From positions 62,001 through 126,000 of the forward strand of contig CALMUT010000316.1 in the NCBI GenBank assembly GCA_937872925.1: a DNA stretch of 64,000 nucleotides, read 5' to 3'. The notes under the pieces are model-generated. The model ran no database searches. It was given only the letters and a program-made list of their open reading frames with translations, and had not been told where the DNA came from. This DNA comes from an uncultured Myxococcales bacterium (GTDB lineage Bacteria > Myxococcota_A > Polyangia > Polyangiales > Polyangiaceae). A program made the position numbers and the translations under genes. Every line of letters starts with the position of its first letter. The first letter of the stretch is position 1. Of the stretch, positions 730-63,062 are shown piece after piece.

Positions 730-1422
730 CTAGACCAGGGCGGCAGGCTGTCCGCACTCGCGATTCGCGGGCACGGCTTCGTCGATGTGTTTCGGAGGGG
801 GCAGTCCCAGTTCGTCCAGGATCTTCACGAACGCGGCTTTGGATTTGCCGGCAACGCGCGGATTGTGACGCTTCTCTTCTCCGATGCTGGATTGCGTGTG
901 CCCCTTGTAGTCGTGGCCGGGCCACACGACGGTGCTGTCGGCTAATTGGAAAAGCACTTTGGTGAGGGAATCCCAGAGGACTTCGGGGCTTCCGTTCTGG
1001 AAATCTGTTCGCCCGGTTCCGCGCACCAACAGCGCGTCGCCTGTGAAGACGTTTCCGTCGATTAGAAAGCTCAAACTGTCGTCGGTGTGTCCCGGCGTTT
1101 CCAGGATGCAGATCTCAAGGTCGCCAAGGACGACTCGATCCCCGTGCCGGACCTGTAGGTCCGCGCACTTGGCACCACGTGTGGAGCCGATGCTGCGGGC
1201 TCCCGTCCGGTCGCGCAACGCACCGCTAGCAGTGACGTGATCGGCGTGCACGTGCGTGTCGAGCACGTACTCCAAATTGAGGCCCAGTTCTTCAATCAGC
1301 TTCAAGTCACGCTCAAGCTGTTCGCGCACGGGATCGATCAGCGCCGCACTTCGGGTGCGGGGATCCGCCACCAAGTAGGTGTAGGTCGAGGTTTCTCGGT
1401 CGAATAGTTGTCGTAACAGCAT
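730..1422 (-). CDS. ETHE1-like persulfide dioxygenase (MBL fold)
   Basis: The 230-residue protein is a metallo-beta-lactamase-fold enzyme of the ETHE1/persulfide dioxygenase type. This family oxidises glutathione persulfide to sulfite with a mononuclear iron. Visible signatures are THVHADH (His57, His59, Asp61, His62), His112 in ETPGHT, Asp129 in FTGDALL, GRTDFQNG at 137-144 and His170 in WPGHD. By family knowledge, His57, His112 and Asp129 would be the three iron ligands. A longer frame exists upstream, but ATG 1422 is preferred because GGAGGAG lies at 1432-1426 just before it. The divergent neighbour is a TauE/SafE exporter, which fits removal of the sulfite product. Transcription probably starts near 1440 from the sigma-54-like promoter at 1451-1466. 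A glyoxalase II-like hydrolase is the alternative, but GRTDFQ favours the dioxygenase. Confidence 0.88.
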   Translation of the reverse strand: MLLRQLFDRETSTYTYLVADPRTRSAALIDPVREQLERDLKLIEELGLNLEYVLDTHVHADHVTASGALRDRTGARSIGSTRGAKCADLQVRHGDRVVLGDLEICILETPGHTDDSLSFLIDGNVFTGDALLVRGTGRTDFQNGSPEVLWDSLTKVLFQLADSTVVWPGHDYKGHTQSSIGEEKRHNPRVAGKSKAAFVKILDELGLPPPKHIDEAVPANRECGQPAALV

Positions 1423-1450
1423 GGTCTCCTCCGATTCGCATCGAAGACAG

Positions 1451-1466
1451 TGCAGTTGCCGTGCCA
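1451..1466 (-). promoter_or_regulatory. Sigma-54 (-24/-12) promoter for the persulfide dioxygenase
   Basis: Read on the minus strand the site is TGGCACG, four bases (GCAA), then CTGCA. The sigma-54 consensus is YTGGCACG-N4-TTGCW; the differences are T to C in the -12 box and the base before TGG. The invariant GG and GC are exactly spaced. A start about 12 bases downstream of the GC, near 1440, gives a leader of roughly 18 bases that carries the GGAGGAG ribosome site. This geometry supports a working promoter. Confidence 0.75.
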
Positions 1467-1495
1467 TCCAAGAGCTTCGCAAAGATCCCGCACCA

Positions 1496-1546
1496 TGAAA
1501 CGAATTGAAACGTTGTCTGAAACAATCGCTGTAACGCCCTGAAACG
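1496..1546. promoter_or_regulatory. Five phased TGAAACG repeats, probable activator binding region
   Basis: Five direct copies of TGAAACG begin at 1496, 1506, 1518, 1530 and 1540, that is every 10-12 bases or one helical turn. Three copies are exact; 1518 reads TGAAACA and 1530 reads TGTAACG. The array sits between two divergent sigma-54-like promoters, about 80 bases upstream of one predicted start and 120 upstream of the other. That is the usual place for enhancer sites of sigma-54-dependent activators. In Cupriavidus, FisR is such an activator controlling persulfide dioxygenase genes; a FisR-like regulator here is inference, and no such gene is in the window. Confidence 0.65.
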
Positions 1547-1616
1547 AGAATTCGGCCAGAATTCCGACGTATTCACCGGAATCCCCGGGATCCCCCGCCC
1601 CTCGTTGCTTTGGGCG

Positions 1617-1633
1617 TTGGCACGCCGGCTGCA
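1617..1633 (+). promoter_or_regulatory. Sigma-54 (-24/-12) promoter for the TauE/SafE exporter
   Basis: The sequence is TTGGCACG, four bases (CCGG), then CTGCA. It matches YTGGCACG-N4-TTGCW except for one T to C change in the -12 box. It carries the same CTGCA -12 element as the opposing promoter. The predicted start near 1644 leaves only 8-11 bases before ATG 1652 or ATG 1655, with no evident ribosome site. That short leader is the weak point of the call. Confidence 0.65.
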
Positions 1634-1651
1634 ATGTATTTCGGCGTTACC

Positions 1652-2497
1652 ATGATGCCCCTAGTCATCGCACTTTCCGTGCTCATCGGAGTCAGCCTGG
1701 GCCTACTCGGCGGTGGCGGCTCCATCCTCACGGTGCCGATCCTTGTCTACGTCGCCGGGATGGAAACCAAGGCGGCCATCGCGATGAGCCTACTCGTCGT
1801 GGCGGTTACGAGTGCGGCGGGAGTCGTCTCCCATGCCCGCGCCGGACGAGTGCAGTTTCGAACCGGAGCACTATTCGGCGTTGCGGGCATGGTTGGCGCC
1901 TACGCTGGCGGGCGCATCGCGACCTTTATTCCAGGCACGTGGCTTCTAGTTGGCTTCGGTCTCATGATGCTGGCCACCGGCTTCGCGTTGCTGCGAAGTC
2001 GACAGGCCGAAGCGCCGGCGCTGCAAAAATTGCCGGTGTTCCGCGTGCTCTTGGATGGCGTCGTCGTTGGACTCGTGACGGGATTGGTCGGAGCAGGTGG
2101 CGGATTCCTAGTGGTGCCGGCGCTCGTGCTCCTGGGAGGCATGCCGATGAATGTTGCCGTTGGCACGTCGCTGTTCGTGATTGCTCTCAAGAGCAGCGCT
2201 GGATTCGCCGGCTACTTGCACAGCGTTGAAATCGACTGGGGACTTGCGGCGGGAGTGACCGCGGCGGCCACGGTGGGCGGGTTCTTCGGGAGCCGTCTGG
2301 TGGGCAAGATCTCCGAGACGGCGCTGCGCCGTGGGTTTGCGGCGTTCGTGCTGGTGATGGCCGTGGTGCTCCTGGTCAAAGAACTGCCCAGCGAGCTGGG
2401 CCTGCACCTGGGCGCCCTGAGCGCCGTCGGCCTGGGCGCCGCGACCCTGGCCCTGCTCGCCCTCGCCGCCACGCACCTGGTGCGCCGCGAAAGCTGA
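1652..2497 (+). CDS. TauE/SafE-family sulfite/sulfonate exporter
   Basis: This is a polytopic inner-membrane protein of about 281 residues with eight hydrophobic segments. The two halves are related, each opening with a Gly-rich signature (GLLGGGGSILTVP near the N-terminus, GLVGAGGGFLVVPALV in the middle). Those repeats mark the TauE/SafE (DUF81) family, which exports sulfite, sulfoacetate and similar anions. Divergence from a persulfide dioxygenase gene makes sulfite export the likely role. Possible starts are TTG 1610, ATG 1634 and ATG 1652/1655. I chose 1652 because the sigma-54-like promoter at 1617-1633 would place transcription start near 1644, making the earlier codons unusable. No Shine-Dalgarno sequence is visible for any of them. 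Confidence 0.85.
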   Translation: MMPLVIALSVLIGVSLGLLGGGGSILTVPILVYVAGMETKAAIAMSLLVVAVTSAAGVVSHARAGRVQFRTGALFGVAGMVGAYAGGRIATFIPGTWLLVGFGLMMLATGFALLRSRQAEAPALQKLPVFRVLLDGVVVGLVTGLVGAGGGFLVVPALVLLGGMPMNVAVGTSLFVIALKSSAGFAGYLHSVEIDWGLAAGVTAAATVGGFFGSRLVGKISETALRRGFAAFVLVMAVVLLVKELPSELGLHLGALSAVGLGAATLALLALAATHLVRRES

Positions 2498-7032: not shown

Positions 7033-8052
7033 ATGAAGCGCACGCCATGGATTGCTATTCTCTGCTTGGGGCTACTCCGTTGTGGTGGTGACGACGCTGC
7101 AGGTGGCAGTGGCGGTACTGCGGGCAGTGGCGGAGGCTCGGGCGCAGCTGCGGGTGCGGCAGGCAGCGGCGCCACGGCAGGGAGCGGCGCCACGGCGGGT
7201 GCCGGCGGCGCGGGAGCCAGCGCAGCCGGATGCGGCAAGGCGGCGCCTGCGAACGGCAAGATAGAGATCGCCCATGGCGGCGCGACGCGCAGCTATCAGC
7301 TGCACGTGCCCAAGGGCTACGATCCGGCGCAGGCTACGCCCTTGGTGATGAACTTTCACGGGCGTACGGCGGCTGCGCTTGGAGACGCTGCGAAAAACCA
7401 AGAACTAGTCAGCAAGCTATACGCCAAGGCTGACGCCGCCGGTTTCGTCGTGGTCAATCCCCAAGGACTGACCGAGCCCGACGGGACGCAGACCTGGAAC
7501 GCAGGTCTGTGTTGTGCCGCGGACAAGAGCCGGGATGATTTGGGGTTCATCGATGCGGTGATCGACGAGCTGCAGGCAACGCTCTGCATCGACACGAAGC
7601 GCATCTACGCCACGGGTCTGTCCAACGGAGGCTTCTTGTCACACCGCCTTGCATGTGAGCGTTCCGAGCGATTCGCCGCAGTGGCCCCGGTCGCGGCATA
7701 CAACGGCATGTCCAGCTGTAACCCAACCCGGCCGACGCCGCTGATCAGCTTCAATGGCACTGCCGATCCTTTGGTCGGCTACGCGTCGAGCCAAAGCTCG
7801 AATCAAGCCTGGGTCACCCGCAACGGCTGTAGCCCAACCCCCACGGAAACCTTCAAGAATGGGGACAGTCACTGCGACACCTATTCCGGCTGTACCGGTG
7901 GCGGCGAGATCGTGTTCTGCACGGTGGACGACGGTGGCCACACTTGGCCCGGGGGTGCGGACCTTTCCGTTTTCGGGTTCGGCAAGACGACCAACGATCT
8001 CATCGCCAACGACGCGCTCTGGGACTTCTTCCAGAAGCATCCGCTGCCGTAG
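7033..8052 (+). CDS. Lipoprotein esterase, PHB depolymerase/LpqC-like alpha/beta hydrolase
   Basis: The 339-residue protein has a lipobox (LLRC, Cys17), a Gly/Ala/Ser-rich linker to about residue 65, then an alpha/beta hydrolase of the poly(3-hydroxybutyrate) depolymerase/feruloyl esterase family. The catalytic triad is visible: Ser197 in GLSNGG, Asp245 in NGTADPLV and His303 in GGHTWPGG. PLVMNFHG at about 104 supplies the oxyanion region. Extra cysteines (LCC, SHCDTYSGC) suggest disulfides outside the cytoplasm. ATG 7033 is preferred to GTG 7009. TATCCT lies eight bases before the ATG. Likely substrates are polyester or hydroxycinnamate esters; which one cannot be told. Confidence 0.82.
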   Translation: MKRTPWIAILCLGLLRCGGDDAAGGSGGTAGSGGGSGAAAGAAGSGATAGSGATAGAGGAGASAAGCGKAAPANGKIEIAHGGATRSYQLHVPKGYDPAQATPLVMNFHGRTAAALGDAAKNQELVSKLYAKADAAGFVVVNPQGLTEPDGTQTWNAGLCCAADKSRDDLGFIDAVIDELQATLCIDTKRIYATGLSNGGFLSHRLACERSERFAAVAPVAAYNGMSSCNPTRPTPLISFNGTADPLVGYASSQSSNQAWVTRNGCSPTPTETFKNGDSHCDTYSGCTGGGEIVFCTVDDGGHTWPGGADLSVFGFGKTTNDLIANDALWDFFQKHPLP

Positions 8053-61463: not shown

Positions 61464-63062
61464 TCAGAGACCTCCGAAGATCAGGCCGGGGAAAAAGCGA
61501 CTCTTGGCGGTGTCCGGATCCAGGGCGTCGAGCACCGTGGCGCCGAGGGCCGTGGTGCTGCCGCGATCGACGACGTGCAGCGCAATCACTGCGCGTCCGG
61601 CATCACGGCGAGCGACGTCGTAGACGGCGGTCACGTCGCGTTCCACCACGATGCTGGTGGGGTGCAGATCCGAAAGGGTGATGCTGGCGAACTCCGGGGT
61701 GCCAGGTTTCAGCGCCCAGGCACGCTCGCCATCGGGGGCGACGGAAAGCTGGAAGCCGCTGGCGTTGGTCAGCATCGGGAAGCTCTGGCGCTTGTCCAAG
61801 TCGAGCACGTAGAACTCCGGGGCTGACGCGCTCTCTAGGATCTTCAAGTGAGCGCGGGTTGCACCGGGCACGCTCTTGACGTTGGCGACGCTGATGCCGA
61901 TCTCGTACGGGTCGACGCTGCGGAACGGCGTGCCGCTGGTTTGGCCCAAGGACCAAAACGCCACGCCGGTGGCGGAATTGCTCCAGAGTAGTGCTACGTC
62001 GCTCTGGATCGGCTTGTTGGTGACGGAGTCGGTGACTCGCGCCATCTTGCTGTAGGGCTTCTTGAAGGCGACGGTCTCGGCGACGGTGGTCTGCGGATCC
62101 ACCAGGGTGGCAAGCTGCCGGCTGGGGACCAACGTGGCCAAACGCAGTCCGCCGTCGGTCTGTACGAAGGCTAGATCCGTGGGTACACCACCGACGTCGG
62201 CGACATTGACTGTGGGCTTGAAGGGTTTGTTCGGTTCGTCCGCGGGGGGAGCGGCGAGCTCGACGATCATCACGTTGCTGTCGCCTTCAAGGCGGATGGC
62301 AATACGCGCGTCACTCGGATCGTCGGGATCGCCGTCGTGGAAGTCCACCTGGGCGGGTTTGCCCGGCTTGCCTGTGGACGTCTGCGGCAAGATCAACGTG
62401 ACTTCGTCGCGGGTCGGTTCGGATAGATCGACCAACGTCACGTCCTGCTCCGTCTCGACGATGAGCAGCCGGCGCGCGGCGCCACCCGGCACGTTGAGCT
62501 CGCTAGTGAAGGTCAAGCGCGTGGGGCGACCGCCGAAGCTTCGGATGGTTTTCGGCAACGGGTCCGCCTGCGGCGTACCGAGCTTCACGAGGATCAGCTC
62601 GTTGGGGTTCACGACTACGCCGCCGGCATCGAAGACCACGGCCCACTCGCCCTCGGGGTCGATGGCCAGCCCTTGCAGCGGATCCGTCAGCGTGTAGCGC
62701 GCCTGCACTTCCGGCGTGGTTCCTCCGGAAATCACGGTCAAGCTAGGGCGCTCGTCGTCAGGTTTGCGCCGGGGTTGCACGCCGCTGGAAAGCACGAAGA
62801 GCGTTTCGCGATCCGGGGACGCTTCTGCGCGCACGACGTTCTTGCCGACACGCAACGGCGTGGAGAGCAGCTCGCGGCCACTGGTGACGCCCAGCATCAA
62901 GACGCGATCGAGGCTCGGATCCACCACGGCGACGGAACCCGAGAGCCCCACGTGCTTCACCGGCGTCTGCAGGGGCTTTTCCCAGTGGTCGGGGCGGCCG
63001 CCGCAGGCACTGACGACAGCACCAAGACTAAGCAACGTAAGTGACCAAGCTATGCGTTTCAT
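61464..63062 (-). CDS. Beta-propeller lipoprotein, unknown function
   Basis: The 532-residue protein starts at ATG 63062, overlapping the preceding gene's stop (TGATG). It has a lipobox (AVVSACGG). The body has repeated propeller-like blocks (VAVVDPSLDRVLMLG, LFVLSSGV, GLAIDPEGEWAVVFD, VALLWSNSA, FYVLDLDKRQSFP, QLSVAPDGERAWAL), as in YVTN/WD-like proteins. It shares this design with its upstream neighbour. Function unknown. Confidence 0.65.
   Translation of the reverse strand: MKRIAWSLTLLSLGAVVSACGGRPDHWEKPLQTPVKHVGLSGSVAVVDPSLDRVLMLGVTSGRELLSTPLRVGKNVVRAEASPDRETLFVLSSGVQPRRKPDDERPSLTVISGGTTPEVQARYTLTDPLQGLAIDPEGEWAVVFDAGGVVVNPNELILVKLGTPQADPLPKTIRSFGGRPTRLTFTSELNVPGGAARRLLIVETEQDVTLVDLSEPTRDEVTLILPQTSTGKPGKPAQVDFHDGDPDDPSDARIAIRLEGDSNVMIVELAAPPADEPNKPFKPTVNVADVGGVPTDLAFVQTDGGLRLATLVPSRQLATLVDPQTTVAETVAFKKPYSKMARVTDSVTNKPIQSDVALLWSNSATGVAFWSLGQTSGTPFRSVDPYEIGISVANVKSVPGATRAHLKILESASAPEFYVLDLDKRQSFPMLTNASGFQLSVAPDGERAWALKPGTPEFASITLSDLHPTSIVVERDVTAVYDVARRDAGRAVIALHVVDRGSTTALGATVLDALDPDTAKSRFFPGLIFGGL

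Follow-up and report, generated by a model that had tools for sequence, protein, structure and literature searches.

What regulates the divergent pair of genes formed by a persulfide dioxygenase (PDO) gene and a gene for a TauE/SafE-family exporter? The initial annotation placed both under a FisR-like, polysulfide-responsive activator bound to repeats between two outward-facing sigma-54 promoters, with FisR of Cupriavidus as the precedent. The window is the full 64,000-nt stretch of contig CALMUT010000316.1 that was analyzed (positions 62,001 to 126,000 of the forward strand), and the features of the region are given below in window coordinates.

730..1422, minus strand: PDO, ETHE1-type MBL fold, 230 aa, ATG at 1422-1420 (PDB match, Pfam Lactamase_B)
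1426..1432, minus strand: Shine-Dalgarno sequence GGAGGAG of PDO (sequence)
1451..1466, minus strand: sigma-54 -24/-12 element TGGCACG-GCAA-CTGCA of PDO (sequence, genome pattern search; boxes upstream of PDO in many relatives)
1496..1502, plus strand: repeat 1, TGAAACG (for this and the next four: sequence, relatives, genome pattern search)
1506..1512, plus strand: repeat 2, TGAAACG
1518..1524, plus strand: repeat 3, TGAAACA
1530..1536, plus strand: repeat 4, TGTAACG
1540..1546, plus strand: repeat 5, TGAAACG
1618..1633, plus strand: sigma-54 -24/-12 element TGGCACG-CCGG-CTGCA of TauE (sequence, genome pattern search; divergent partner boxes in L045, L046 and L127)
1652..2497, plus strand: TauE/SafE-family exporter, 281 aa, ATG at 1652 (Pfam)

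Promoters and repeats between the PDO and TauE genes

The best PDB match of the PDO is 4ysb (330 bits over 227 aa), which we take to be PDO1 of Myxococcus xanthus; human ETHE1 (4chl) scored 198 bits. The exporter matched Pfam TauE (PF01925) above the cutoff, with 169 bits and an E value of 1.7e-49. The pairing is physiologically sensible, as FisR of Acinetobacter baumannii was shown genetically to drive a PDO1-SQR-TauE operon on sulfide (PMC7315123), which places together a route from persulfide to sulfite and on to export.

The near-consensus TGGCACG-N4-CTGCA elements claimed for each strand were both read, at 1466-1451 (minus) and 1618-1633 (plus), at the right distance upstream of PDO and TauE, respectively. 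Each has GG/GC at -24/-12 with correct spacing and matches 11 of the 12 scored positions. As the -12 GC of the minus-strand element lies at 1453-1452, transcription of PDO is predicted to start at approximately 1440, about 18 nt ahead of the ATG with a good ribosome site between, in agreement with the view that the start falls just before GGAGGAG (1432-1426). The predicted start of TauE is at approximately 1644, leaving a leader of only about 8 nt without a Shine-Dalgarno site, which is the weak point of the plus promoter; a similarly short leader was found again in relatives, ahead of TauE in L045 and ahead of a YeeE-like gene in L046 and L127. The box pattern alone is no commoner than its control, with 8 exact matches to TGGCACG-N4-YTGCA in the 9.39-Mb genome against 6 for the reversed pattern. 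Two of the 8 are the window pair, set apart by their outward-facing arrangement 167 bp from each other.

The five TGAAACG-like repeats reported between the boxes were confirmed at 1496-1546, with start-to-start spacings of 10, 12, 12, and 10 bp. Five copies of TG[AT]AAC[AG] within 60 bp occurred once in the window and never in 60 dinucleotide shuffles. Genome-wide, TGAAAC-N4-6-TGNAAC-N4-6-TGNAAC gave 4 matches, 3 of them inside the array (control pattern, 0), and direct repeats of this form are found essentially nowhere else in the genome. A lone two-copy TGAAACG match at C149:29100 of the same genome was rejected; no sulfur gene was recognized nearby. Measured from the predicted starts, the array lies about 98 to 148 bp upstream on the plus side and about 56 to 106 bp upstream on the minus side, and tandem-repeat enhancers 80 to 150 bp upstream are usual for sigma-54 activators of such a kind (PMC7910581). 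The GC-rich genome and the lack of enrichment of the box pattern would suit the explanation that repeats and boxes are incidental and that both genes use ordinary promoters. However, the outward pairing of boxes around a unique array, together with the recurrence of these elements in different families of the order and in Acinetobacter (see below), leaves this explanation very improbable.

Similar architectures are known from Nla28 of M. xanthus (PMC7910581) and GcsR of Pseudomonas aeruginosa (PMC4894688), where dimers of the activator sit on repeats arranged in tandem ahead of the sigma-54 box. TGTAACG, the half-site of GcsR, is similar to the window repeats, but the full GcsR site, an 18-bp TGTAACG-N4-CGTTCCG, differs, and both systems involve other activators, signals, and full sites.

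Recurrence of the array and the activator family in relatives

The expectation that the repeats would recur next to PDO and TauE genes in related genomes was upheld. In relatives from the same family and order, the regions ahead of PDO orthologs contain sigma-54 boxes as well as arrays of this 7-mer, which may run in either direction and has the consensus YGTTKCA, and in many relatives the elements upstream of PDO match 10 to 11 of the 12 consensus positions. Most same-strand repeats follow each other at 10 bp (19 cases) or at 12 bp (15), the two spacings seen in the window. Within 428 kb around PDO, TauE, and activator loci, 36 arrays of at least three repeats were found against 0.3 in shuffles, and arrays mostly adjoin a PDO, TauE, or activator gene. 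Tandem TGTTGCAGTGGC repeats in G006 and G168 look like a simple 12-bp repeat and were rejected as arrays. Divergent box pairs around an array were identified beside TauE in L045 (G028) and beside a YeeE-like gene in L046 and L127 (G040 and G049); the box-to-box distance in G040 and G049, 167 bp, is identical to that in the window. At L046:8886-8915 and at L127 the gene divergent from PDO is thus the YeeE-like one, named by eye, instead of TauE. This comparative evidence favors the earlier suggestion that PDO and exporter may be controlled jointly, according to a sulfide/persulfide logic.

Many of these loci have, next to PDO, the gene for a sigma-54 activator in which an N-terminal PAS-like domain, with its [L/F]CG cysteine conserved, is followed by an AAA+ domain of the GAFTGA type and an HTH of the Fis type; members of this family are usually encoded beside PDO. 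Searching with a profile of the PAS domain identified this family in 25 of 59 genomes, mostly well above threshold and in one copy each. GAFTGA is invariant across the aligned members, and the cysteine is present in 20 of 21. A PDO ortholog was present in 38 genomes, of which 20 have the activator family and 18 do not. An array lay no more than 3 kb from PDO in 15 genomes of the first group and 2 of the second (Fisher P = 9e-5) and within 400 bp upstream of PDO in 11 and 1, respectively (P = 0.001), while sigma-54 box scores upstream of PDO were higher in genomes with the family (P = 3e-5); these P values are indicative only, since the array and score definitions were set after some loci had been seen and the genomes are related. 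No array was recognized at PDO in G001 (a congener), G003, G044, G054, and G058 despite the presence of the activator family, and in G022 and G045, which have close PDO orthologs, neither array nor activator was found. In several relatives (L114, L115, L116, L117, L118, and L128) the activator, often with an array, lies beside a second, distant MBL-fold enzyme that shares roughly 32 to 36% identity with the window PDO, and TauE is mostly present there as well.

Two activator lineages under the name FisR

The single clear member of this family in the window's genome is encoded on another contig, as follows.

C216:5564-6919: candidate activator, 451 aa (family profile)

C216 scored 637 bits against the family profile, compared with 367 bits for the next match in the same genome, and contains the Sigma54_activat (224 bits) and HTH_8 (47 bits) domains, with the GAFTGA AAA+ module and Fis HTH of a bacterial enhancer-binding protein. 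The model of the sensor domain (mean pLDDT, 83.5) matches PAS/LOV structures. No array accompanies the C216 gene, which is not linked to the window.

A plasmid search for the activator yielded, among the matches opened, mostly activators with other neighbors and no PDO; the exception, FisR of Cupriavidus metallidurans, became the reference. This FisR-like protein, encoded on NC_007974 between PDO-like and TauE-like genes, has cysteines at 53, 64, and 71, presumably the positions reported for FisR of C. pinatubonensis. In the window's genome, C180 (L157:2029-3345) is clearly orthologous to it, with 51% identity and 420 bits versus 256 for the next protein, and C216 ranks 12th. All three sensor cysteines are kept by C180, whereas the C216 family keeps one. 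FisR is known to drive PDO genes in Cupriavidus and, according to a review, uses three conserved cysteines (PMC9774590), and the array could on these grounds be assigned to C180 and its three-cysteine PAS domain. We regard this as unlikely. The C. metallidurans and C180 loci carry TGCCA..TGGCA dyads (CTGCCAGATATGGCAG upstream at C180), and no YGTTKCA array was found at either. FisR of the Cupriavidus type was present in only a handful of the 59 relatives (strongest matches in G000, G003, G012, and G058), and most array-bearing genomes therefore lack it. The recognition helix is SERTLYR/SQRTLYR rather than the SRVTLWR of the C216 family, and C180 sits at an NnrS/DUF59/DUF2249-like locus (families named by eye). 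Cupriavidus-type FisR was thus rejected as the array binder on orthology, distribution, DNA site, and recognition helix. It shares with the C216 family the nature of a sigma-54 activator with a PAS-like sensor and, in C. metallidurans, TGGCACG boxes with repeated sites. When the profiles of the two PAS domains were compared, no more than 35 columns, at the start, could be aligned. Near C180 (contig C180 of G000) there are also genes for a cytochrome c and for glutathione-dependent formaldehyde enzymes, a neighborhood that suggests a role beyond PDO control.

The kinship of C216 lies with Acinetobacter. A tree built from AAA+/HTH cores united three FisR proteins from Acinetobacter with the C216 family in one clade (support, 1.0), and of about 30 sampled activators of its genome C216 alone fell there; Cupriavidus-type FisR grouped elsewhere, and monophyly of the myxobacterial family to the exclusion of Acinetobacter was weakly supported (0.375). 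The Acinetobacter helices, SRTTLWR/SRTSLWR, match SRVTLWR. The Acinetobacter loci (L230, L255, and L267) come from three genomes other than A. baumannii, and the stretch between PDO and fisR holds the 7-mer four times in L230, four times in L267, and three times in L255, compared with about 0.05 arrays per locus in shuffles. Upstream of PDO they likewise have sigma-54 boxes of the TGGCAT/TGGCAC type (TGGCATT-ATGT-TTGCA-like). PDO and TauE are also the targets in the A. baumannii operon (PMC7315123). The arrangement differs in that Acinetobacter fisR adjoins pdo, whereas the activator gene here is in trans and its targets are divergent. The sensor region differs as well: Acinetobacter N termini do not match the PAS profile and lack the conserved PAS cysteine found in the C216 family. 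Clade-related activators without any N-terminal sensor domain lie next to PDO at L044:6706-7689 and, in Acinetobacter, at L255:6840-7808, and regulation there must consequently work without a PAS domain; in G044 the sensorless activator (L044) adjoins a PAS-bearing paralog. As the Acinetobacter sensor region has no PAS cysteine and is absent altogether in L255, the signal may be sensed differently in this genus.

On the sequence comparisons made here, the name FisR covers two lineages, Acinetobacter-type and Cupriavidus-type. Of the FisR-like activator first proposed, the sigma-54 boxes and the polysulfide logic stand, but Cupriavidus FisR does not, as the repeats track a different family, kin to Acinetobacter FisR, and Cupriavidus-type loci carry other dyads and are rare in relatives. 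The absence from A. baumannii FisR of the cysteines seen in its Cupriavidus namesake is a stated puzzle (PMC7315123); on present evidence, the A. baumannii protein is a member of another lineage, which has a DNA site of its own, and persulfide sensing by this lineage is therefore directly testable. No published operator for the C216/Acinetobacter-FisR lineage was found in a literature search that did not extend to the original Cupriavidus FisR study. A candidate operator and a candidate regulator family are offered for sulfide/persulfide defense in myxobacteria, where none was found described.

Proposed control by C216

The likely regulator of PDO and TauE is the Acinetobacter-type activator C216, encoded in trans. 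We assign a probability of nearly 0.8 to the reading that sulfur-stress detoxification is controlled in both directions from this sigma-54 region, with a C216-type activator on the array serving both promoters. Dimers of C216 would bind the TGAAACG/YGTTKCA array as an oligomer and respond to persulfide or polysulfide, with the one conserved cysteine of the PAS domain ([L/F]CG) as the probable sensor. The activator would then hydrolyze ATP and open sigma-54 RNA polymerase at the PDO promoter and the TauE promoter alike, whereupon PDO would oxidize persulfide to sulfite and TauE would export the sulfite. Counted against this reading are the unlinked activator gene without an array, the array-less congener G001, the short TauE leader, and the Acinetobacter sensor without the PAS cysteine.

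The window's genome encodes about 55 sigma-54 activators in all, and arrays alone do not prove which of them binds; genes for the second type of MBL enzyme and YeeE-like genes are linked to arrays too. Use of the array by another of these activators, responding to another signal (e.g., sulfite, nitric oxide, or redox), is nonetheless improbable, as presence/absence and gene neighborhood point to one activator family and the SRVTLWR helix was found only in C216 among the sampled activators caught by the helix pattern.

For the C216 lineage as a whole, we lean slightly toward a wider generalization, in which sigma-54 activators non-orthologous to Cupriavidus FisR would sense persulfide via a single PAS cysteine, or by another route where the sensor domain is absent, and act on YGTTKCA arrays at PDO, TauE, and YeeE genes from Myxococcota to Acinetobacter; two unrelated regulators would thus have been named FisR.

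Arrays were also observed in other contexts. G064, a genome of the order, has several YGTTKCA direct-repeat arrays (C16:35306, C31:97434, and C34:126328), with no PDO or TauE match in the 3 kb fetched around them. In a distant organism, Sulfidibacter corallicola (L196), where no sigma-54 activator was found within the fetched flank, a three-repeat array (7846-7871) and a TGGCACTCGGGTTGCT box are present upstream of PDO.
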